This document shows, in pieces, positions 10,853 through 57,800 of a DNA stretch of 64,000 nt. Within the stretch, counting starts at the first letter, position 1; every line of letters starts with the position of its first letter. The stretch is from NCBI RefSeq assembly GCF_009389715.1, contig NW_024067740.1, forward strand, positions 496,001 to 560,000, written 5' to 3'. A program made the translations under genes and the position numbers. Below the pieces are notes generated by a model. That model was not told the DNA's origin. It made no database searches and saw only the letters and a program-made list of their open reading frames with translations. Source of the DNA: Phoenix dactylifera (taxonomy: Eukaryota > Streptophyta > Magnoliopsida > Arecales > Arecaceae).

Positions 10853-10925
10853 TCCGTTGTAGTCTAGTTGGTTAGGATACTCGGCTCTCACCCGAGAGAC
10901 CCGGGTTCGAGTCCCGGCAACGGAA
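10853..10925 (+). tRNA. tRNA-Glu (anticodon CTC)
   Basis: A full cloverleaf can be drawn. Acceptor strands are TCCGTTG and CAACGGA with discriminator A at 10925. The anticodon stem CTCGG/CCGAG encloses the loop CTCTCAC with anticodon CTC at 10887-10889. The T-arm contains GGTTCGAGTCC, which is also the B box; the A box is in TAGTCTAGTTGG. The gene is intronless and CCA is not encoded, as expected for a nuclear gene. It decodes GAG in the cytosol. The organellar tRNA-Glu normally has a TTC anticodon, so this is unlikely to be an organelle insertion. Confidence 0.97.
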
Positions 10926-21500: not shown

Positions 21501-24500
21501 AGGCATTTTCTATTTATTTGTTTATTAGGTGATGCACGTTGTCATGCTGTATTTAACTGTTGTAAGGTTCTATTGAAACAGACATCCCTCTGCAATAAGG
21601 TATCAACTCGTAGTCATTAGTTGCGGCACAGCCTGCAACAAGACTTGAAAATGAAATATCTTCTTCATAATGTCTCTGTAACTTTTGGCGAAGACAGGAA
21701 TTGCCTGTCTGTAGTTCAAACATAAAGCTTGACTCCTTGGAGAATTGACAGGCCCTAGTCATCTATATAGCATACCTTCTCTTCAGTTGATTTGTATCTG
21801 AATGTTGTGATTGGGAATTTCTTATTCTTATGTTACAAAGTCTACATCAAAGCTTATGTTGTTTCTGACCTACACATTGATGTACACTGCATTCATCATT
21901 GATGTACGCTGCATTCATTATCTGAAATTGAAAGTGCTTTTGCACTTAACATGGTCTTCCTATTCTCTAATCAAGTGAGCGCTCGGATGAAATTGTTAGG
22001 AACTTCCATGGAGTTAAAGCTCCTTGTAGAATCTAATGATCTTAATAATGGTATCTTAAAGCTTCTAATTTCATGTGAATCAATGAAGAGAAGTTTGGTT
22101 ACGATATTTTGTTCTCTTCACATTATTTTTAGTCAAGGTCTCCAACAATTAGGCAGACAATCTTGTGGGCCTTTTAAAGTAGTAGTGTCAGTTGGGCAGA
22201 AATAATTCTAGAGTTTCTTTTTTGTTTTCAAGAAATGCTACAAACTGATTAAACTAAAAAAACTGTTAGAGCAATTTGAAAATATTTAATTTTTAGGTAC
22301 AATGACTTCCTGATTTTGTTATGCATATTATTTTCTTATTCCCATTATGTCGAAAATCATTTGGAGCAAGGTTTGCCAAATTGGTACCGGAGGACGTACC
22401 GGCTGGAGAGTTGTTGCCGACATAGGGAGAGCTAGAGAGGGAGGGGAGAGGGACAAAAGGAAAGAGGAAAGAGGAAGAGAGAGAGGGGATTAAAGAAAGA
22501 AAGGAGGAAGAAGAAAATGCCTGACCTTGAGAGCTAGTTCATGAACTCTGAAGTAAGAAGTGGAGCAATGGCAGCGCTAAAGAGCAAAAGAAGGGGAAGA
22601 GGGAGGGGGGAGAGAGAGAAAGAGAGGGAGACGATGGGAGGGAGGGATCTGCCGGAACATGGGCGGGGGGATGAAAGCAAGCGGGCCATGGGTGGTTTAA
22701 TAGCCGAATCGGCCCCATCTCATTTTAATAGCGTGAATTGTGCCGATCCTTGACCAGTCTGGTTTGGCATGCCCCGAACTGGCTGGTTCAACACATTTTG
22801 GCAAGCCATAGTTTGGAGTGAATTGTTTTTGAATTTCTTGCTTATTTTGGAATTTGGTTATGAAGAATAGGTTTCTTCTTGAAAAGGATCCTTGCAGAGG
22901 TAGCATTTTCTTTGCCTTGTGGTGGTTGTCATCTGTGTTGCCGAGGGTAAGGAGAAGTAATGTAGTAGCATGTGCAACACAAATTTATATTTACCCAAGC
23001 AATTCAAGATATAGGAGGTCAGTCAGAAATATAAGGATCGATGCAAATGGAGACTAGCATTAGTTATCTCATGCAGGAAATATAGATCCTTTATCTTTCT
23101 TTTTATTTAATACCTTTTAATAGATTCATAGGATCTCGATACCCGAGGTATTGACATAGGTAAGAGGATTGTTTTCCAAACTAGAATGTACCACCTCATA
23201 CCAGGCGTACCGGTAGTAAATTGATACTCAGTATGGGGGGATATTATGTGTTGGTACCATGAACTACCTATACGAACACTGTACCAAATTGTGCCCGGTA
23301 TGGGTACCAAAACTATTGTTGCAAACCTTGGGCAAGAGGCTATATCTGATTTTTTCTCAATTTTTTTCTGATCTTTTGTATTGGTTTTTGTATGCATTAA
23401 TCTATATCTCCTTTCATGATCTTCAAATCTTATTAGGCAAGTTTTATTTTTTACCACTAGATTTTCTTTTGTTACTTTTCTGCTTTGATAGCTCATTCTT
23501 TTCCTGATTATCTGTCGATAATTCTATCTGTCAATAATGCAATGTCTAACTTTATATAACTTGAAGAGTCCTTTTGCTTTTTTACAGGAGAGGCTTGTCT
23601 GAGTCAGAGATCAGCTTTCTCAGGGAGGTACCACATTGTATTTTTAACTTCTTACATAGGCTCCAAGTATTGATAGTTCCTGATGAGTAGACTCGCCGAT
23701 TCTTTTTGAGATATGCAGAACATGTGAATATTATATTTTTAGGACATTAGTGTTGACAATTTTTGCTCAATAGATTGGCATTGTTTTTTTAATGTATACA
23801 GAAAATATGAATTTTCACTCACTTATATACCACACTACCTGTGACAATTATTGTGTGCATCTCTTGTACGTTGATGACTGGCATTCTGTCTTCATCATAA
23901 TATCTGCTACATGAACAGAACAATAACCACATATGAAAGTAGAAAACATACATCAAAGTACTCGATCAAGTTTAATTATATCTTATCCTGCTCGCCATCA
24001 GGCTAATAGTTTGCTGCAACAATTTGTTAAATGGCTATAGATCTTGTTTTCCTTCATTTTTTTAGAAATATTTATCATATGGTTTGAATTTTGAACTGTT
24101 ATAATTTCTGAGCTGACCTCGCTGTTTCTTGGAATCATGAGTCTCTATGTACCAAGAAGTTTTGAAAGCTTCAAGAACAAAATAGTGTAGGTTTGAGTTG
24201 CCATATCCCTGCTTTTTAGCTAGCAAATAAAGATGCTCCTCTAAGAGCTAAATTAAGTACTCATAATTGAGAGCAATATAGAGAAATACGAGAAGTGGCA
24301 AGCTTGCCAATTGATAGTACATGAGAATGTAAGCTTGAATACTTTCTAGTTCCCACTACATAGCTTTGCTGTTCTTTTGGTGAATCTCGGGTCTTTTAAA
24401 GAACTAAGAGCAAGAAAGAAGAGATGAACATGAAGGAGCAAAGGAGCAGGGGAGAGGGAGAAATGAAGGTTTTAAGTTATGGCTAAGGCCACACCAAAAT

Positions 24501-27500
24501 TGACCCCCTCTTTTGCATTTTGGTTAATCTTGGTCCAATTTCAGCTGAAACTGAGAGAAACCAGCCATAAATGCTTTTCCCCCTTCTATAAACTTTATTA
24601 TTTTGTTTTCTGCCCTATGGGGATCATTTCTTTACGTATTTAAATACAAGCAAATTTTCGATGGTCTTTCTTTTTCTTCAGTTATAAGAATGGATAGATG
24701 ATAAGCGTTAATGTTGATGGGTTGAGGATTTCATATAGGCACTTATGAGAGTATTTTTATAAAGACTATTATGATCAACTAAATATGTACATGCTAAATA
24801 GGAACTTGTATTTTTTCTTATAACATAAAGATACCATTCTGGATTTACATGCGTTTAATTAAATTGTCACTTATCCTCATAATAATGAGAAAGAAAAGCC
24901 CATGTTCAATATGTTAAAAAGTTGTCAAAAGTGATGAAAATATTTGAATCTCACTAGGCACTAACAAATTTCATAATGGATAAATATATTAATTTTTCTA
25001 ACAACTAATCTTCTGAAAGTAAATGTGTACATGCATGTTCATATACTTGATTTTTTTGAATTTTATTTACATACTAACTTCAACCTAAAACTGTCTCAAA
25101 ACTACACATGCAAAGAATCTATGTATCACAAGATGCTCTAAACTGTTGTGTGGTTGCTTTTATTGGCTTCTTTTATTTTCTTCTATTTTTTAAACATTTT
25201 GTTTTTGACTTTTTGATTAGAACTCCGTAACTTGGAGCTAAACTTCTAAAACTGCTGAAATTGAAACTCCAAAGACTCGCTGGGAACTGACAAGAATTTT
25301 TAAACCTGGAAGAAAAGAATTGGTTAGAAAAGCTGCACGACTCTATCTAGATTTGTTTTACTTGTTCATTTCTGAATATTTCAAGTGAATAATTTTTACA
25401 CTTTCCATACATGTTATGAAATGTACTTTGTTCTACTGAATTTTGGAGGTCACCAAACACTGGAAGATGCTCTTTCATGAAATTACAGTCTCACCAGGAG
25501 TTAAGAGAGGCCTTTTTGGTGACATTGTTTAGTTATAAGTGGGAGGAAGTGATCAACGTGTGGGAAAGTGAACTGAAAACTGGTACAGCTTGGTGGTCTG
25601 GATACGTACATGGGTTTACTAAATCAAATAATAATGGGATTAATTTGAAAATCCAGGGTTTGGTGGGGTGGTTTGGAATATGTCTCTGGTTATTGATGGG
25701 AAACAAGCCACCACTGGTTATTTCTCTATAAGCTAGGGTTATGTTACATATACAAGTCTAAAGAGACTTTGAATTGTTGCTGATGCTAAGTTGATTAAGA
25801 AATGCTGGTCCAGATTATACTGTGGATGCTGGAGAGACTGTCTATCGTAGAGGTGAGGAAACTATGGTACCAGATGGTCTTGCAAAATAAGAAGCTGTTG
25901 AAAAATATGATACTGGATGGTCTTGTGAAATAAGAAGCTGCTGAAAAATAATTTATCTAGGTACAAAAAGATGGCTATTGACAACAAATTCTTGTGCATT
26001 GTTGAGGGTCTAACCTCAAGGGCCTTTTTTGGAACTCATTTGCAAAATTCTATTATACTATTTATGTTTCTCTTTTTCTTAATAAAACACATTATCTTTG
26101 CTCTACTTGTTTTGTAGTATAATAATTTTAGTTGAATTAAGTTGAGTTGTGGTTCTAAAGGTATCCAATGCAAGGTCCGCCGTACCGGTACCGGTCGGCG
26201 TACCGGTGGCCGGCCGGACCGGTACGGTACCGGTCCGGTCCGGTCCGTACCGGCCGGTACCGGTCCCGTACCGGCCGGTACCGGTCCCGTACCGGCCGGT
26301 ACCGGTCCCGTACCGGCCGGTACTCGGTGGTTTCAAAAACCACAGCGCGCGGCGCTGTGGTTCTAAAAAAAAAAAAAATCATACCGGTGCGAACCGGCTG
26401 GTTCGCACCGGTACGAGGCCGGTACCGGCCGGTACGGGCGCCGAACCGGCCGGTACGCACCCGTACCGGCCGGTTCGGATAAAAAACCGGGAAATACCGG
26501 TTTTTTATCCGTTCCGGTACCGGTCCACGGCCGGACCGGTACGTACCGGCCCGTACCGGCCGGTACGGACCGGTACGGCATTCCATGATCCAATGTATTA
26601 TTTACTCTTCTCTTAATTTATTTGCTATTCTTGATGATGGCTCGCATTTTTGAGATATTTTTTCCTCTTGCATAGACTTGAGAATGAAAAATTTAGACAC
26701 ATGATTAGTATGTTGAACAGATTGACTCAAGCATTTTGCAAGAAAATAATTTGCCCAAATAATTCATTTTTATTAGCTTTAACAGAAAAGTATTAGCTTT
26801 GTGTTGCTCTGCTTCTTTCATTCGGTTCATGATTCTTGATTTGTTTATCAGAATAAAACCCTGCAAGCCAAAGTTCTCCAATCAGAAAGTGTCACTGGAA
26901 ATTCTCTTGGTAAGTACATTACTTTTATGTTGTTCTGGATGGAAAAATCATATAAAGCTGTTTATCTTGTTATTTACCTTGAGTTGCACTGGAATTTGAA
27001 CCGAGAACTCCTGTCCATTCCCCATGAACCCAAGTGGCTTGCAAGCTTGTGGAAGATTACAATGAAAATGACATCTCAAACCAAAAATCCTGTGACGTGT
27101 GACAGACCTGAAACTGATCTACCCCCAGACCTCAGAAATGTGAATTCAAGCTTTTAAGACACCCAAGATTGAAAAAATTAACTCCAAAAGAAAAGACCAG
27201 AATATCTTCATCGCATGTAGGTGGGTGGCAAAATCTGACCTTCAAGAACCTGCCCGGAGAAATGGGTTTGGTGGTTCTTTCTAAAGTTGAGTCGGTCTGG
27301 TTCATCTGGAAATCAACCCGGTTATAAATGGGTAGGTTTGTTTAGTCCCCTGACTCGATGGGTCACTTAGGATGATCCGGTGGGAAACAACCGGCTCCCA
27401 AATCCAATAGAGTTGATAGTTCTCTAATTATTTTTCCATGTGTTTCAGTTCACTCAAAATAACAAAAAAACTGTGTTCTATAGAGTGATGGACAGGGTGC

Positions 27501-39500: not shown

Positions 39501-42500
39501 AAGATATCTTCTTCTATTATGTTAGTGTTTGATAATATCTGCCATTTTCAGATTTCATATCACCAAATAACTGTTGTCACCTGTTTTTCTTGTCTAATTA
39601 AGGTTCTTTTGTTGTATATACAGTATTTTTATAAGAGAATTCTAGATCCTACAAAATCTCAAAGAATCCAATGTTTTCATTTCTTCTTTTATGGTCTCGC
39701 TAGATTACCGAATATGTGTACAAAGAAAACATAAAACATATTTAAGAAACATAAGTAGCGCGACGTCGTGAAATGATGAGTTCACCTTAGGGTTCATATG
39801 ATTTATTATGATTAATTGCATCCTTAAGTCATGCTTCTTTTCTTGGTTCAGTGTTGAACCTTTTGGCATGATATCAATTGATGATAGATATATTGTGGAA
39901 TTATTTGTGATTTGCCTCTTAGGTGTTGTTATATTTTAGAAACATATTTGCACTTAGATGGACTGAATCAAGAGATTCCTAGTAGAGGAATTGGGATGGG
40001 CATGTGAAAAAATATAATGTAAATTTTAAAAAGGTGCATGGAGGTTATGGTTTCAGACATAGAAACAAGAAAGGAAATATCATTTTGGAGTTCACAATGC
40101 CATGCAATCTAGTTCTAGCCATCAATTGCTTTAGAAAGGACTCTCACTTGATAACTTTTATAAGTGGGCATAATACTAGTTAAATAGATTTCTTCCCTAC
40201 TAAAAAACTAACCAAATTGTATATAAAGATTGTAAGATTATGCTAGGTGAGAGTTTAACCACCCAATGTAGATTGGCAGTTTTGGATGTATGTGCTGGAA
40301 AATAGAAAAAAAGGGCCAAAGAAAATAAGAGCCCAGAGATTAGATGGTGAAATTTGCTAGGGAAATAAATGACTTTTAGGGATGGAATATTGAAGGAAAG
40401 AAAATGAGGTCTGGATGGGAAAATCAATACCATATTGGAAGAGATGACTAACAGTATTGAGGAAGTGGCTATAAAGGTATTAGGAGAATCAGAGGCAAAA
40501 GGATCGAAGGAAAACATGATGGTGAAATAAGAAAGTTTAGTAGGCAGTTAAGGCTAAAAGAAAGTGTTATACAAAACTACCGAAATATAAGAATAGAGAC
40601 ATTCATGAAAGCTATAGGGTGGCTAAGGCGGAAGTTAAGAAGGTGGATTAATTCAAAGCATATGAATAGTTATATTATAGGTTAGAAACCAAGGATGGGG
40701 AGGAAAATATATATAGGATTACAAGACTAAGAGAAAGGAAGACTAGAGACTTGACTCAGGTTAAGTGCGTTAAAGATATTGAAGGAAGGAAAATAAGAGC
40801 CCGGGGATTAGATGGTGAAATTTGCTAGAGAAACAAATGACTTTTAGGGATGGAATATTGAAGGAAGGAAAATAAGGTCTAGATGGGAAAATCAATACCA
40901 TATTGGAAGAGATGATTAATTGTATTGAGAAAGTTGCTATAAAGGTATTAAGAGAATCAGAGGAAAAAGGATCGAAGGAAAACTTGAAGGTGAAATAAGA
41001 AAGTTTAGTAGGCAGTTATGGCTGAAAGAAAGTGTTATACAAAACTACCGAAATATAAGAATAGAGAAGTGCATGAAAGCTATAAGGTGGCTAAGGGGGA
41101 AGTTAAGAAGGTGGGTTGATTTAAAGCATATGAATAGTTATATTATAAGTTAGAAACCAGGGATGGGAAGGAGAATATTTATAGAATTACAAGACTAAGA
41201 GAAAGGAAAACTAGAGACTTGACTCAGGTTAAGTGCGTTAAGGATAAAAATTTAAAAATTTTGATTAAGGAGGGCGAGATTAAAGAAAGATGGAGTTATT
41301 TTGATAAGCTATTTAATGGAAGTCTTGTAAATGATTTAAGATGCCTTACTAGTTCTATTGAGGATAAAAATATGGAGAATACACATAGAATTAGAGTATT
41401 TGAGATAAAGGAGGCTATAAAAAAGATGAAAATAGGTAAAGCGGTTAAACCTATTGATCTCTAAGGAGGATTATAAGTGTTTAGGTGACGTAGGAGGAAC
41501 TTGGTTGACTAATTTGTTTAATAAGATTTTAAAGACCAAGAAGATGCTTGTTGAATGGAGGAAGAGCATTGTGGTACCAATTTATAAGAATAAAGGAGAT
41601 ATTCTATGTTGTTCTAACTATGTTGGTATCAAACTAATGAGTTATACTATGAAATTTTGTGAGGATGATTAAGCATAGATTGTGGTGTGGCACAAAAACA
41701 TCAGAGAATCAATTTGAGTTTATGCCAGCAAGGTCGACTATTGAAGCTATTTTATTTTTCATTTGGAGGTTAATGAAGAATAATAGAGAAAGAGACAAGA
41801 TCTTCATATAGTTTTTATTGATTTAGGGAAAGCATATGATAGAGTTCTTACAGAAGACCTATGGTGGGTCTTAGAAAAGAAAGTAACTTCTTTAGATATA
41901 TTAATATGATTAAGGATGTCTACAATAGGTGATTACCAGTGTAAGAGCTACTGATGGCAATACTAGCAAGTTTCTAATTGCAATAGGTTTCCACTGAGGA
42001 TCTGTTCTTAGTCTTTACCTTTTTGCACTAGTTATGGATGAGCTTATTAGGCATATTTGGGATGATAGTTCTTGATGCATGCTATATGTGGATGATATAA
42101 TCTAAGTGGACAACAGTAAAGTTTGAATCAATTGTAAATTGAAAGTGTGGAGGATGTTGTTAGAATCTAAGGGTTTTAAGGTTAAGTAGGTCCAAAAGGG
42201 AAAATATTGAGTGCAATTTAGTATAATTAGAAATGAAAATGAAGGTGGAGTGAAAATTGAGGATCATGTCGTTCCTAAGAGTGATTATTTTAGATATTTA
42301 GTATTGATTATTCATAAGGAAGAAAATCTTGAAAAGGATGTTATCCACAAGATTAAAACAATCTAGATAAAATAGAGAAGTACAACTTATATGATTGTAG
42401 GATACTTGACAGATTGATGAAAAATTTCATAGGATAGCTATACGACTAGTTATACTTTATAGTATAGAATGTTGGGTAGTTAGAAAACAACATGTGCACA

Positions 42501-46174: not shown

Positions 46175-49174
46175 TGTAATAACTCCAAAAAAAATTTTTT
46201 TTATAAAAAAGGGATAGAATAGTCCTTTAAAATTGATATAAGGGGTAAAATTGGAAGGAATCAAAAGTTAATGGCATAATAGTAGATGTGTTGAAGTGTT
46301 AAGGGCAAAATGGGAAGGAATCAAAAGATAATGGCATAATTGCAGATATATCGAAGTGGCAGAGGCAAATTGGGAATTTAATAATATTAAAAAAGGGTGA
46401 ATAGTGTTTTGATGTGATTTAATTGGAGGGTTTGAGCTACGGAATGAAGCAGAGAAAGAAAGAGGGAGGGGGTTCACAGACGGCAACAGAGAGGAAGAAA
46501 AAGAAGGAGAGGAAATGAAAGGAAGAAAGGAAGAGGAAGAAGAAGAAGAAAAATAAAAGGAAGGAGATCCCGGTTGCGCTGCCAGCTGAAGGGAAAAACA
46601 TAGATCTCCTTCCCCTCTACGCAAGGACCTCGATTTCCAAAAAGAAAAAGGTAAATATCCATCTCTATCTAGTCTTTTGATGACATTAGGCTATACAAAG
46701 GGTGGATATAGTCTAGAGGGGTCGGATAAGGGTTGTAGAGGTGGTTAAAAGAAGAAGAATCGGATTTTGACAAATTTTTCGGGCACTACGGAAAAACTGT
46801 GTCGAAGTCCCAACTTCGGCAAATTATTTAGGGGGTCAAACGGCCTCCGATGATGATGCATGTTATCTCTTTGGAATCCTCTGTGAGTGTAGAATGTTAG
46901 GTAAAAATTTCATCAAATTTGGAGTCCTGAAAGTGGATCAAAACCGGGATGAAGTAACCCACTGTCAGTTCGGGTTACTGTTCATCCGGGTGGAAAATAG
47001 GGGATTTCATGCTATAATAGAGTATTAAGCCTAGATCAAGCTAAAAGGGACCTTGTACTCATGCAAAGGAGTCCCTAATACACATAAATGGTGAGTTAAT
47101 TAATTAAAAAGGAAAAAAAGAAAGAAAAGAAAAGATTTAGAGAACATGGGAGTTGAATCAATTAAAGTTTCCTATGTTATAATTGGCACGTAGATTATAG
47201 CCCTTGATACAAGACTAAATGTATTGTAAATGCATGTCACAGTTGGGCAAGAAGCTAGGGAACAAGAGGAAGAAGTTCCCCACTGCCTGCTGTAGATTTT
47301 TGGAGGCGTATCAGGGCTGTGCCAGATTGACAGGTGAGTGGGAGTCATGTACTTTGCACTATGAGCATCCTTAATTCATTTTCATGAATGTCGCCAAGTG
47401 TGAATTGATTCCACTTGAGCATATTGATTAATATTGTAGTAGATTCCTCTATAATCTTGATTCTCCATGCTTGATTATTCTGTACATGCATTTGAGGGAA
47501 CATTGAGAGGAATTACGAGGGGTTGATGAGTAATCAAATTGATTCCGAATTGTGAAATGATTTCTTTTGTAAATTGATTTCATTTCCTCTATTTCAAAGA
47601 TTTGTAGAGCCCATTTCAGTGGTATATTGAGTTGCATTGTACATCCTTGACCCCTCACTCCCAACCCTGATGTTAGTTTATGATTGGGTCGGAGTCGAGT
47701 GAGCGGTAGTCTTGATCATACTCCTTTTTAGTAGAGTATTGGGAGGGTGCATTATGGCATTTATGCATGGCTTGGCAGTATCTGCAGGACACCTATAGTC
47801 GATGGGGGTTGAACATCGGCCTTTGTGCACATAGTAGCCTTCTGGGTGGGCGGAGCCCAGTCCCTTCCTAGGGGGGACACGGCCCTAGGCGTAGGATCGG
47901 CCGGTCCTACGACTTATATTCTGCTTGCCGCCGGGCATAGTAAGACCCCGCGAGGTGCAGTATGGCTTTCCGCGGATGTAGAATTCCCGCGAGGTGCCGT
48001 TTAGTATGTAGATGTGAGATGGATTTCTGTTCTGGATACTGGCCGGCATTTATATGATCAGTGTGGTGTCTTATCCTGCATATGCATGCGACAGTAGGGA
48101 GTTGTTGCTGGTTCGCCTGGGGCGTAAAACCCACCTTCCGACAGCTGTCTAGCATTTATGTTATCGGTATGGTGTCTTATCCTGCATATGCATGTGACAG
48201 TAGGGAGTTGTTGCTGGTTCGCCTGGGGCGTAAAACCCACCTCCCGACAGCTGTCTAGTGATGATTTACATATTGGTGTGGTGTCATATTCGATGTATGC
48301 ATATGGCAGTAGAGAGTTGTTGCTGGTTCGCCTGGGGCGTAAAACCCACCTCCCGATAGCTGTCTTGTTGATGATTCAGCCTATTGACACCTGATTTATA
48401 TGATTCAGTACTATGACATGTTGAGCATATTCATGAGTAGCATATATGTTGACTTGATTATTCCATATATGCTTCAGATGAGTTGATATTGATTGTGGTG
48501 ATATTGATGACTTACTCCATATTCTCTATGTTGAGATCATGTTCATCTTATTATTGATCTTGAGATTTCACCTCGAGCCATGATTATATCTGGTCTCATG
48601 TGCATAGTACTCTCTACTCCACTCACTGAGTATTTATATACTCACTCCCCAGTTTGGTGTTTTTGATTGCAGGGCAGGTATTGTATAGAGAGGAGCAGGA
48701 TTAGTGATTGCCTGTTAGCTGTGCCGCTCCATAGTATAGTATAATGTACATAGAGGTTTATACCCTTTTGGTGTATTATAAACCTTCTGTTGTATATAGT
48801 GTATAGTTACAGTCATAGATCCTGTTGTGGATATGGGTTGACCATGGATGGATTGGGAAGCATGTATATATATATGTGTGTGCAGATCAGTTGTGTGCCT
48901 GTGATAATGTATTGCTATATATTGTCCAGGTTTATTATGTGACAGATTATGTGATTACTGCTCTGACAGGTAGTGTGTTATATGTATTGAGATAATCCTG
49001 ACAGGTCACCATAGGAAAGGTGATCATTTTGTGCATGCATCATGCCAAAATTTTTCAGAATTTATGGATGATTGATAGGTAGTAGGGTTCCACGTGGTGG
49101 CTGGTGGCCTTATGCCTACCCGCACCCTAGGACCGTCGCGGCGGCCCGCCGGGAACGGGGCGGGGGTCATGACA
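46175..49174 (+). repeat. 5' LTR, 3000 bp
   Basis: It runs from TGTAATAACT to GTCATGACA. It starts with a T/A homopolymer patch, then a GA-rich zone (about 46445-46570). Near its 3' part it carries three copies of a 106-109-bp unit. No functional protein is encoded; open frames within it occur at identical positions in both LTRs. Confidence 0.95.
48065..48363 (+). repeat. Three-copy tandem array in the 5' LTR
   Basis: Units start at GGTGTCTTAT or GGTGTCATAT at 48065, 48171 and 48280. Each contains GGGAGTTGTTGCTGGTTCGC and GGGGCGTAAAACCCACC. The 3' LTR has four units. Confidence 0.93.
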
Positions 49175-49191: not shown

Positions 49192-49414
49192 AAAGGTTAA
49201 GAAGAGTCCTGTCAGAGCAATAGGATGAGTCAGGATTAAGTATAGGATTATACTATGGAGCATAGGATTTTTCTGTATGTTATTTTATGAGTCATTTACA
49301 ACTCAGTAAAATATATCATGACTCAGTGTGTAACGACCATCCTCTCTTTTTGACTTTTTTAGAAAGATATAAAGAATACCTCCAAGGAGAGGATCTGCTC
49401 GTCCTGGAAGGAGG

Positions 49415-49861
49415 ATGGAGCCAGATATAGCATTGGATGCGGGTTCCACACATATCGAGCCCCAAAGAGAAAAATCTCCTCCTGCAGACAGGCGGAGAGT
49501 TGATGATCAAGGGGAGGTAGGAAGTAGAGATGCATTGATGGAACAGTTACTGGCGGAGAATCAGGCTCTGAGGGAGCAGATTGCTCGGAGGAAATCTCCT
49601 GCCCCGTCAGTAGTATCCATCCCACCTCCTGTAGTTGTGCCAAGAAGTTTGGCCAGGCGGGCTCTAGATGATGAGGGGATTACTGTACAGGAATTTCTGA
49701 GGCTCAGAACCCCAGAGTTTAAGGGGGAAGAAGGTGAAGATCCTCAGAGATTCCTGGAGGAGACTGAAAAGATGATACGGAGACTGCCCTGTTCTGATGC
49801 AAGAGCTATAGAACTTGTAGGGCTTACAATGAAGAGAAGATACACTCACCCCTTTGAGTAA
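49415..49861 (+). pseudogene. Truncated gag of the LTR element
   Basis: A 148-codon frame that reads like the N terminus of a Ty3/gypsy Gag. A charged, glutamine-rich helical stretch (LLAENQALREQIARR, about residues 45-59) precedes the conserved FLRLRTPEFKGEEGEDPQ and ELVGLTMK. It stops at TGA shortly after, where it joins sequence from the far 3' end of the internal region. The capsid core, zinc knuckle and all of pol are absent. The TGA is a consequence of the deletion junction near 49830. Confidence 0.8.
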
Positions 49862-49916: not shown

Positions 49917-52900
49917 TGTAATAACCCCAAAAAAAAAATTTTTTATAAAAAAGGGATAGAATAGTCCTTTAAAATTGATATAAGGGGTAAAATTGGAAGG
50001 AATCAAAAGTTAATGGCATAATAGTAGATGTGTTGAAGTGTTAAGGGCAAAATGGGAAGGAATCAAAAGATAATGGCATAATTGCAGATATATCGAAGTG
50101 GCAGAGGCAAATTGGGAATTTAATAATATTAAAAAAGGGTGAATAGTGTTTTGATGTGATTTAATTGGAGGGTTTGAGCTACGGAATGAAGCAGAGAAAG
50201 AAAGAGGGAGGGGGTTCACAGACGGCAACAGAGAGGAAGAAAAAGAAGGAGAGGAAATGAAAGGAAGAAAGGAAGAGGAAGAAGAAGAAGAAAAATAAAA
50301 GGAAGGAGATCCCGGTTGCGCTGCCAGCTGAAGGGAAAAACATAGATCTCCTTCCCCTCTACGCAAGGACCTCGATTTCCAAAAAGAAAAAGGTAAATAT
50401 CCATCTCTATCTAGTCTTTTGATGACATTAGGCTATACAAAGGGTGGATATAGTCTAGAGGGGTCGGATAAGGGTTGTAGAGGTGGTTAAAAGAAGAAGA
50501 ATCGGATTTTGACAAATTTTTCGGGCACTACGGAAAAACTGTGTCGAAGTCCCAACTTCGGCAAATTATTTAGGGGGTCAAACGGCCTCCGATGATGATG
50601 CATGTTATCTCTTTGGAATCCTCTGTGAGTGTAGAATGTTAGGTAAAAATTTCATCAAATTTGGAGTCCTGAAAGTGGATCAAAACCGGGATGAAGTAAC
50701 CCACTGTCAGTTCGGGTTACTGTTCATCCGGGTGGAAAATAGGGGATTTCATGCTATAATAGAGTATTAAGCCTAGATCAAGCTAAAAGGGACCTTGTAC
50801 TCATGCAAAGGAGTCCCTAATACACATAAATGGTGAGTTAATTAATTAAAAAGGAAAAAAAGAAAGAAAAGAAAAGATTTAGAGAACATGGGAGTTGAAT
50901 CAATTAAAGTTTCCTATGTTATAATTGGCACGTAGATTATAGCCCTTGATACAAGACTAAATGTATTGTAAATGCATGTCACAGTTGGGCAAGAAGCTAG
51001 GGAACAAGAGGAAGAAGTTCCCCACTGCCTGCTGTAGATTTTTGGAGGCGTATCAGGGCTGTGCCAGATTGACAGGTGAGTGGGAGTCATGTACTTTGCA
51101 CTATGAGCATCCTTAATTCATTTTCATGAATGTCGCCAAGTGTGAATTGATTCCACTTGAGCATATTGATTAATATTGTAGTAGATTCCTCTATAATCTT
51201 GATTCTCCATGCTTGATTATTCTGTACATGCATTTGAGGGAACATTGAGAGGAATTACGAGGGGTTGATGAGTAATCAAATTGATTCCGAATTGTGAAAT
51301 GATTTCTTTTGTAAATTGATTTCATTTCCTCTATTTCAAAGATTTGTAGAGCCCATTTCAGTGGTATATTGAGTTGCATTGTACATCCTTGACCCCTCAC
51401 TCCCAACCCTGATGTTAGTTTATGATTGGGTCGGAGTCGAGTGAGCGGTAGTCTTGATCATACTCCTTTTTAGTAGAGTATTGGGAGGGTGCATTATGGC
51501 ATTTATGCATGGCTTGGCAGTATCTGCAGGACACCTATAGTCGATGGGGGTTGAACATCGGCCTTTGTGCACATAGTAGCCTTCTGGGTGGGCGGAGCCC
51601 AGTCCCTTCCTAGGGGGGGACACGGCCCTAGGCGTAGGATCGGCCGGTCCTACGACTTATATTCTGCTTGCCGCCGGGCATAGTAAGACCCCGCGAGGTG
51701 CAGTATGGCTTTCCGCGGATGTAGAATTCCCGCGAGGTGCCGTTTAGTATGTAGATGTGAGATGGATTTCTGTTCTGGATACTGGCCGGCATTTATATGA
51801 TCAGTGTGGTGTCTTATCCTGCATATGCATGCGACAGTAGGGAGTTGTTGCTGGTTCGCCTGGGGCGTAAAACCCACCTCCCGATAGCTGTCTAGCATTT
51901 ATGTTATCGGTATGGTGTCTTATCCTGCATATGCATGTGACAGTAGGGAGTTGTTGCTGGTTCGCCTGGGGCGTAAAACCCACCTTCCGACAGCTGTCTA
52001 GCATTTATGTTATCGGTATGGTGTCTTATCCTGCATATGCATGTGACAGTAGGGAGTTGTTGCTGGTTCGCCTGGGGCGTAAAACCCACCTCCCGACAGC
52101 TGTCTAGTGATGATTTACATATTGGTGTGGTGTCATATTCGATGTATGCATATGGCAGTAGAGAGTTGTTGCTGGTTCGCCTGGGGCGTAAAACCCACCT
52201 CCCGATAGCTGTCTTGTTGATGATTCAGCCTATTGACACCTGATTTATATGATTCAGTACTATGACATGTTGAGCATATTCATGAGTAGCATATATGTTG
52301 ACTTGATTATTCCATATATGCTTCAGATGAGTTGATATTGATTGTGGTGATATTGATGACTTACTCCATATTCTCTATGTTGAGATCATGTTCATCTTAT
52401 TATTGATCTTGAGATTTCACCTCGAGCCATGATTATATCTGGTCTCATGTGCATAGTACTCTCTACTCCACTCACTGAGTATTTATATACTCACTCCCCA
52501 GTTTGGTGTTTTTGATTGCAGGGCAGGTATTGTATAGAGAGGAGCAGGATTAGTGATTGCCTGTTAGCTGTGCCGCTCCATAGTATAGTATAATGTAGAT
52601 AGAGGTTTATACCCTTTTGGTGTATTATAAACCTTCTGTTGTATATAGTGTATAGTTACAGTCATAGATCCTGTTGTGGATATGGGTTGACCATGGATGG
52701 ATTGGGAAGCATGTATATATATATGTGTGTGCAGATCAGTTGTGTGCCTGTGATAATGTATTGCTATATATTGTCCAGGTTTATTATGTGACAGATTATG
52801 TGATTACTGCTCTGACAGGTAGTGTGTTATATGTATTGAGATAATCCTGACAGGTCACCATAGGAAAGGTGATCATTTTGTGCATGCATCATGCCAAAAT

Positions 52901-54748: not shown

Positions 54749-54892
54749 ATCTTCAAGAACCCCTGAAACGCTTCCAAGAATAAAGTAGTTGCTTGATTGG
54801 AGGGGGAAAAAAAAAATCCCTCTTTTATATATACATATCCAAGGCATCTTTTTGCTGGCCAAGAACGTCTAATCTCTTTTGCTTCTCTAACA

Positions 54893-57800
54893 ATGCCGCT
54901 CGGGCAGAGGGTGGGAGACAAAAGCGACTCGCGGTATTGCGGAGTGGAGACAGAATTCGATTATGACATGCCTCAGGTCTTGACCTTCAATCTTTCAGGT
55001 GGCTTCGATTTCGTCATGGCTCCTCTGGTTCGTAGTATCTATCCAGCTCTTCTCTTAATTTAACAAGATTTTCTTGCCTCTCTTAATTTCCCATAGTCTG
55101 AAGTTTCTTCGATTCGCTTTGGTTGTTCGTCAAGTTCGGTTCCATTTTTTGCCGTTGTAGAATATCAGCACTTCGAAGCTATAATAAATAATAAGAATTG
55201 AAAAATATAAAAGAACATGTTATGCTTGGAGAAAGTTGGAAAAAATTACATAGCAAACAGGGTGCATGTTTTAGCATATATTCTGCTTTATCTGGACACA
55301 ATGTCTTATGATGCTGGGTGGAAATCCTTTCAGTCGAGTCGAATGGTAGGGAATCGCAATAAAGCACGTAGTAAGAAGGTCTTAGAGAAGTTAGAGAATG
55401 GTCTAGTTAGTTTGTCAGTTCCAGATTCGCTGAAAGATTTTATGTTCACGGTTTTGCGATAGAATAGATAGTTATGTTGGGATGTAATGACTAGCTGTGT
55501 AATACCATGACTACTGGATATAGTTACAATAATGATAAATCAAAAATAATGCTAGCCAACACCATGTCCAGGTTGTGTATGCACCGGACATAATCCAACT
55601 GGTTTTGATTGAAAGCTGATGAAATTGGTCCCATGTCATTTGAAATCGAAAGAGGCACGTATAGTCATCTTGGCCTATGTCATTATTTCAGATTACCAAA
55701 AAATGAAGAAATTTTAGATAAAAGTACCATATACTGTTTTATCATATGCTCATAACGCCTGCATAGTATACATTTGCCTGTGAATCTGATGTATACTTAA
55801 TGCATGAGCCACTTAATGTGGCAAAACCCACATAATTGAGATTCACAATTAATTCAGAAAAGGAACTTTTCTAATATCTGTAAGTTGGGTGGATATCAGG
55901 AGATTGTATTGTATGGAAACTAACAAAATATTGGTGTGCCTTTTAAAAAATGTTTAGCCTTTCCGGAAAGATATACATTTCTTTCAATCAGCTGTCATTA
56001 AAGTGGGAAAGAACTTAAATGTCAGTGGAATCCACAATTATTAAAAGGTCAATGTAAGCTGGTCTCTGACAATATAGAGCATGTCATTAGGCAGTCACAT
56101 GATGTGACTAGTGCTGCAGGAATCCAAATATTGGTTGTGATGTTTTCATCTCATATCTCTCTAAGTTTCATGGTGGCCAATTAGCCAATCACATATGGCC
56201 AATTTGGCTATCGTATGTGGAATGGTCGGTAGCCACCAATAATACTGCTGTTTCAGTATTTTAGGAAGCCATAATTTTTTTTCCTGTCAGGTACTTCAAG
56301 TCATTTTCGTTGAAAGATCAGAAAAATACTTCATGATCCTTTTCCAACATGTGAAGATCTAGGATTGCTCATATAGATGGTTTTCTTTTCTAATTTAAAA
56401 ACTTGCAAAAAATGCCATAGTTTTCACCTTCCAAAAAGTGCCTCGTGAAACCTTAAAAATGCAAAGGAGTGTGGCTAGTGGTTGAATGGTGTTTGGCATG
56501 TGGGCTTCAAGAGTTGGCCTTGTACACAGTAGAGACAAGTAGATATTGATCTTTATTGTATTTGATGTGCCCTTCTTTATGTCTATTCTTTTGCAACCTA
56601 ATGCAGATTGATCCTAGTTATAGACCTAGTTCAGTGAAAAAGGAAGCCGATGGAAGTTCAGTTCTTCCAGCTGCAGCATCAGACTTAATTCTTAGCCCCT
56701 CACAGTGGAGTAGTCATGTTGTTGGTATGTATCACTGTATATAATTGTGGTTATTGAAAAAATTAACTCCATTAAATTCATACCTAGATTCTAATATAAA
56801 TGTATGCACATCATTCATATCATCTTGAATGTGATATATTGATGTTTATATGCTCTAGATTCTTTGCAAAGTTCACTTAAAATGAATTCTTTCAATAACC
56901 ATTATAACATCGTCATTCATATGGATTGGCTTCAATTTTGGAACTATTGATGCCAGTCCGTGCTTGGTTGAAGAAAGTGGAGGTTGTCAGACTGTCATAA
57001 GAGCATCTCAAACGAAGAAATGGGTCCACATTCAGTATTCCTGGAAGCTATGGCACCTCTTGTTTAGAGTGCTAGGCAAATGAGGATTCTAAAGCTGACC
57101 CTAAATAGTTGGGACAGCCTTGATGATTATTGATGGTTATGGGTAAGTTGCCTTGTTGGAGAAATGGTAACCTTCTCATTTTTTTTGAGAATAATAACCT
57201 TCCCACTTAATGGCCATATTTTTGACAAGTCATAGCTTGTAAATTGTGTATAGTACGAGTTCATAAGGTTTGACCATTATGATCGAATTATGGCAGTAGT
57301 ATGTTATCATTATACAGTCACAATTGTAATGTCCTTGCTAGTAGTGAGACATTCGATTGGGCATTTTTTCGTCCTAAGAATTTCCAAAAGGTTGAATGTA
57401 TTATATAGTATGTATGCTATCATTATACAGTCACAATTATAGTGTCCTTGCTAGTCTATATCACAGTGCCCTACTAATTTTCATTTGTTGTGTGAATCTT
57501 AACCTGTATCAAGCATTAATTACTTTGGGAGTGTTTTAATTGTTACTCTAGTAATATATACATAAAATATAAAATAGTTAATTGTACTAATGCTAAGGGA
57601 CTTTTAATTGCTGTGCTACTGCTATGATATTTATTTAATGAATATGTAACTCAACTATTTGCATCAAAGAATCACTCTTTTCTTTCTGTTCCTGACTGCG
57701 TCTTAGATCCATTTTGACATCATTCGGGAGGGTTCTGCTGTTTATTATGATCATCTACTTCAAGTCAAATAGGTCCTTTTTTTTGTTTCACTCATCTTTT

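Follow-up and report, generated by a model that had tools for sequence, protein, structure and literature searches.

The E1 locus and its surroundings

The window analysed here is the whole 64,000-nucleotide stretch of DNA. On its plus strand the hand-joined exons of a gene match PF25483 (DUF7906, 5.4e-13), and one intron of this gene, with hand-placed splice sites, spans 23628..26851. This intron contains E1 (26171..26587, plus strand), a whole non-autonomous element of 417 bp that ends 264 nt from the hand-placed acceptor. E1 is bounded by an exact 8-bp repeat, ATCCAATG, which forms the left (26163..26170) and right (26588..26595) target-site duplications, and a like arrangement was found in 44 other copies in the genome. 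The 5' end of E1 is CAAGGTCCGCCGTACCGG (26171..26188, plus strand) and the 3' end, read on the minus strand, is CATGGAATGCCGTACCGG (26570..26587). Both ends have GCCGTACCGG in common, while their outer 8 bp match only partially. A first-pass annotation of this DNA had described a GC-rich 417-bp palindromic island of extreme composition, with an exact 8-bp flanking duplication and with inverted ends that share an inner sequence. Its coordinates agree with ours, and each of these descriptions holds.

The GC content of E1 is 66%, compared with 38% for the window, and the observed/expected CpG ratio is 1.50 compared with 0.46 in the remainder of the window. CCGG occurs 40 times in E1, GTAC 24 times, and GTACCGG or CCGGTAC 30 times. 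Perfect palindromes of at least 8 bp make up 43% of the element (mean 12% and maximum 24% in 300 dinucleotide shuffles), and 13 of the 14 occurrences of GGTACCGG in the window are inside E1 (shuffle mean 0.13). The predicted DNA folding of E1 has z = −17, and the predicted RNA fold is also very stable (−310.8 kcal/mol). The 10.5-bp periodicity of CCGG was not significant when tested across the whole element, although a 10/11-bp spacing is clear inside its tandem array. Helical phasing of the words was therefore dropped. The five E1 reading frames that were tested all matched no Pfam family, and the long open frames in E1 exist because its words contain no stops. Of 20,000 random 417-bp intervals, 270 had an exact 8-bp repeat close to the two edges, and thus the duplication of E1 by itself is only moderate evidence.

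Several other features were noticed in the window. A tRNA gene was identified by Rfam at 10853-10925 (67.8 bits). There is a long direct duplication (46243-48951 and 49985-52800, ~3.7-3.8 kb apart), and 60-bp and 106-bp arrays as well as reading frames are repeated in both duplicates. A gag-like frame at 49373-49861 was recognised by eye, and the Pfam search gave no match. Two 468-bp tandem units, 92% alike, are found at 40321-41246; beside them are frames that by eye resemble fragments of a LINE-type reverse transcriptase, with no supporting Pfam match. The frame at 54797-55060 resembles the first exon of plant PRMT5 by eye, again with no Pfam match.

Copies of E1 in the genome

We searched the window's own assembly (773,078,369 bases in 2391 contigs) using E1 with its flanks as the query. 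There were 1946 candidates, and all 40 scored places, E1 included, matched with 81-100% identity. The first base of the element is base 9 of the query and the element ends at base 425. In 28 of the 39 other best rows the alignment starts at query base 8 or 9, and in 19 it ends at 425-427. The remaining rows were clipped by the aligner (ten end at 406, within the last repeats, and some begin late), and on reading both ends were found in all 39. Seven of the best matches are shorter copies, and all seven have the 5' end and 8/8 identical flanks.

The exact 18-bp 5' end is present 726 times in the genome and the exact 3' end 355 times, and neither reversed control was found. On two contigs, C1 and C2, 97 exact 5' ends were listed. 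For 35 of them an exact 3' end lies 117-565 bp away on the expected strand, and from the other 62, which have no exact 3' partner, five extra copies were drawn through the 5' end alone. Four of these five have a partner with 8/8 flanks. For the fifth, L157, a match 590 bp from its start was obtained with a pattern that combines a loose 3' end and the left flank; this pattern has five places in the genome, one of which is L157, while the reversed control has two. Genome-wide, exact 5' ends outnumber exact 3' ends about two to one, and therefore many copies may have a different 3' end, as L153 and L157 do with CCTTG.

The 40 best matches and the five extra copies gave 45 copies for examination. 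All 45 start with CAAGG..GCCG and end with CCATG or a near variant. The 8-bp flanks are identical in 43 of them and agree at 7/8 in the other two (L069 and L074). In 44 copies the ends were read directly (42 with 8/8 and two with 7/8), the 45th being L157 with its pattern match. For two 8-mers of the window the chance of 8/8 agreement is ~5e-5 per pair. L078 and L081 have 685 bp of common flank and are a segmental duplicate, counted as one event; no other related flanks were found among the 44 directly read copies. As a check, the first-pass annotation had proposed searching the genome for copies whose ends match and which carry 8-bp duplications, and the outcome was positive for all 45. The transposon reading of E1 is settled by these other copies.

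The copies are 304-456 bp long (44 copies; L157 is 590 bp), and their observed/expected CpG ratio is 1.32-1.61 across 44 copies. They are short, contain no recognised coding sequence, have homogeneous ends and are present in high copy number, as is characteristic of MITEs. An AT-rich body, which is usual but not defining for MITEs, is absent, the GC content being 0.61-0.67 in the 44 copies. L157 (C1:6220563 onward) has an AT-rich interior, unlike that of E1, between the family 5' end and a close variant of the 3' end, and is a filler-type member.

Two possible relatives are located in the window. E2 (22367..22810, plus strand, 444 bp) has the ends CAAGGTTTGCC and TATGGCTTGCC, and its duplications, ATTTGGAG and GTTTGGAG, are identical at 7/8. 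An alignment with E1 that starts at the first base covers the first 36 bp of E2 at 75% similarity (E 0.075), and there is an inner 15-bp match to E1 with one difference. Thirty candidate 3' ends within 2.5 kb were compared, and only that of E2 had 7/8 flanks. A genome search gave no other full-length copy of E2 among the 32 candidates, all scored; thus E2 is tied to the abundant family by its ends and the short inner match only. Judged by this resemblance, E2 is probably an old relative. E3 (23167..23330, minus strand) has one end, CAAGGTTTGC, and duplications GGTAAGAG and GGCAAGAG that agree at 7/8. Its far end was picked by its duplication, making it a weak case, and E3 is only tentatively regarded as an old relative. 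E2 and E3 were also considered as a single 964-bp element with two CAAGGTTTGC ends, and this was rejected as the flanks agree at only 3/8.

Interior of the elements

On the plus strand of E1, a 21-bp tandem array (26247..26323, unit GTACCGGCCGGTACCGGTCCC) contains 3.7 units, three identical and one partial, and varies between copies. It is followed by a hairpin, AACCACAGCGC / GCGCTGTGGTT (26338..26362), an internal run of 14 A (26365..26378) whose length differs among copies, a hairpin with a perfect 14-bp stem (26382..26413), a hairpin with a perfect 17-bp stem (26441..26478), and a 15-bp hairpin, CGGATAAAAAACCGG / CCGGTTTTTTATCCG (26476..26511), in which four pairs are altered on both sides in one or two copies each. 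The stems of 17, 15 and 14 bp are all perfect. A 21-bp array and perfect hairpins had both been recognised in the first-pass annotation.

We aligned 42 copies, three of them chosen through the 5' end alone. The alignment excludes L155 and L157, which have different interiors, and the duplicate L081. The median divergence from the consensus is 1.7%, a value that describes a subgroup and not the family since the 40 best matches were selected as nearest to E1; the three aligned copies chosen by the 5' end alone are 7.6-15.3% divergent. Length differences occur at many places and mostly consist of blocks of words, as slippage or unequal exchange would give.

Covariation was tested at 40 pairs in the 42 copies, where 97.3% of the cells are paired. 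Changes on both sides were found in four pairs (five cells), all in the 15-bp hairpin, and each double-changed pair is present in one or two of L080, L153, L154, and L156. None of 500 shuffles was as high. When the partners were slid by one column there were also four double-changed pairs (four cells), at only 38.6% of cells paired. Covariation is weak evidence for matched hairpin arms in the family, and the changes in the 15-bp hairpin fit hairpin-templated correction and a folding constraint alike.

The 42-copy alignment was also examined for an excess of CpG decay that would point to methylation, and none was observed. In the consensus, the 108 CpG bases have 69 C>T or G>A changes and the 105 remaining G/C bases have 101, among 369 changes in all; CHG context and the alignment of the array confound this count. 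Plant transposons are usually methylated, and the missing transition excess in copies so packed with CpG is unexpected if these copies are methylated.

The body of E1 could be an overgrown subterminal region built from a single self-complementary word of ~10 bp. Blocks would be added or removed by unequal exchange or template switching from word to word, and the hairpin arms could be kept matched in this way. By analogy with other transposons, we infer that the ACCGG words may be transposase-binding sites that multiplied until they filled the element. A stronger version, which we regard as possible but rather unlikely, is that the body is a self-expanding platform of transposase sites, on which copies rich in ACCGG recruit transposase better and out-compete the others. 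In such a platform words would be gained by slippage and hairpin-templated exchange, and selection for mobility would have made a single palindromic word out of what was an ordinary hAT derivative. Its footprint would be block-wise length change, perhaps with paired changes in the hairpin arms.

Superfamily assignment and comparison with known systems

The duplications of 43 independent copies lean to nTnnnnAn, with T at position 2 in 30 of the 43 (p 5e-7) and A at position 7 in 24 (p 4e-4). This pattern is the target preference of Ac-group hAT elements. The ends of hAT elements are short terminal inverted repeats with the consensus YARNG. The 5' end of the E1 family, CAAGG, fits this consensus, and the 3' end, CATGG, has T at the third base. 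The E1 ends are presumably unlike the 11-bp ends of Ac. Duplications of hAT elements are given as 8 bp, with different target choice in the Ac and Buster groups, in one source (PMC3942097), and as 5, 6 or 8 bp in another (PMC3991616). These sequence features, namely the 8-bp duplication, the nTnnnnAn preference, and the CAAGG terminus, point to hAT and to its Ac group. The earlier reading of E1 as a non-autonomous hAT-like transposon is supported by the same three features.

An autonomous hAT element of this family should match the ends CAAGGTCCGCCG / CATGGAATGCCG. Domains of hAT are common in the genome, as all 150 scored places, the best 150 of 1658 candidates, were above the cut-off. At 30 hAT-dimerisation loci of 3255 bp each, no family end was found within 4 mismatches of 16. 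We further compared 275 domain places among the matches listed (150 hAT and 125 BED) with 190 places of family ends; 97 of these are the exact 5' ends listed on C1 and C2, 93 represent a variant 5' region, and eight elements are in both sets. None of the 275 is within 10 kb of a compared end, and the nearest is one BED place at 10.5 kb. As these lists cover only some of the ends and domains and the flanks are short, an autonomous element may exist in the genome. Within the window, none of the 30 reading frames given to Pfam, including the five over E1, has a hAT domain. No hAT transposase bearing these ends was found at the loci and places compared, and membership of the hAT superfamily, though strongly suggested, is therefore not proven.

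Such ends and duplications imply cut-and-paste movement with a hAT transposase acting in trans. The transposase, encoded elsewhere, would bind the ends and the GTACCGG/ACCGG words, excise the element, and insert it at a target site with a stagger of 8 bp. As E1 is intronic, it would leave with the intron on splicing.

It is improbable that the family belongs to another superfamily that makes 8-bp duplications and was moved by a non-hAT transposase. Duplications of 8 bp are not unique to hAT and are also made by, for example, P-like elements; the 3' end CATGG deviates from the hAT end, and no matching hAT transposase was found in the loci and places compared. However, the lean of the duplications to nTnnnnAn is what Ac-group elements prefer, and hAT domains are abundant in this genome. 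An immobile satellite or GC-rich tandem expansion that arose locally within the intron, with an 8-bp repeat by chance, would account for the short tandem words that make up much of the E1 body, and the random intervals gave such repeats at times, but it is ruled out by genome copies, as all 45 examined are delimited by this pair of ends or close variants of it and the duplicated flanks differ. It is also extremely unlikely that E1 was co-opted by the host, its folded RNA or dense CpG regulating the DUF7906 gene: the stable predicted RNA fold, the CpG ratio, and the intronic position 264 nt from the hand-placed acceptor favor this, but 43 other measured copies have a similar composition, and because composition is a family trait it is uninformative on this locus.

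Therefore, we are confident that E1 is one copy of a high-copy, MITE-like, non-autonomous hAT-type DNA transposon family with the ends CAAGG...CCATG. In our view, the family very probably combines an ordinary mechanism with an unusual body, being a high-copy GC-rich non-autonomous hAT-type family of which no description was found. What had been an unexplained GC-rich island is thereby a member of a mobile family that can be counted, and this family is an exception to the usual AT-rich picture of MITEs. Copies with intact ends offer a direct test of whether the spread of a non-autonomous element is driven by how many subterminal words it has, and insertions of the family are sharply bounded markers in the host genome.

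In the literature searched, four longer E1 words were in no paper, and one further word led to one unrelated paper. Among the matches listed for hAT MITEs of palms or bananas and for GC-rich MITEs, no title or opening of an abstract describes the E1 family; a repeat-database entry is possible. In viral collections there were five matches to the E1 end motif, which were isolated and had no array. Inner 19-base patterns of E1 had no viral and 43 prokaryotic matches. At 48 loci no 417-bp stretch has more than 6 GTACCGG/CCGGTAC words, compared with 30 in E1. The viral and prokaryotic collections contain no plant genomes and have little bearing on the family.

The E1 family resembles the maize elements Ds1 (<500 bp, ~400 bp) and Ds-l4 (~1 kb), which belong to the Ac/Ds system of hAT, in being short and non-autonomous with 8-bp duplications (PMC3260210). 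Variable fillers are described in Ds-l4 (PMC3260210), and likewise one is present in the 590-bp copy L157. Ds1 is said to share little with Ac beyond the ends and a few subterminal AAACGG hexamers, which serve Ac transposition, three copies being required in tests (PMC3260210). These repeats are not always needed, since 314 of 331 maize Ds1 elements lack them and some of those still move (PMC3260210). Unlike in Ds1, the GTACCGG/ACCGG word of the E1 family fills nearly the whole element, at 61-67% GC. Maize Ds elements have the autonomous Ac (PMC3260210), whereas the partner of the E1 family was not found among the loci compared.

BniHAT-1 and BniHAT-2 of Brassica nigra are high-copy MITEs assigned to hAT through their 8-bp duplication; they are 70 and 75% AT and 673 and 666 bp long, and high AT is deemed typical for a MITE family in the source (PMC7385995). 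The E1 family is likewise high-copy with 8-bp duplications, but GC-rich and shorter. GC-rich plant MITEs are already known, since a PIF/Harbinger MITE (854 bp) in Sh1 of Setaria italica has 66% GC (PMC6060267). This MITE and E1 have the same GC content; the Setaria element differs in superfamily and in being exonic, and the portion of the source seen describes no such word array (PMC6060267). Lastly, a study of hAT-derived DNA-binding domains, whose main text does not contain the word "plant" and whose consulted passages have nothing on the E1 family, indicates that each of the four hAT-encoded domains has high-scoring sites within the subterminal regions of its own transposon (PMC8097297). 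Some of these hAT-derived domains prefer CGG or CGC, and thus the proposed role of the ACCGG words gains support (PMC8097297).
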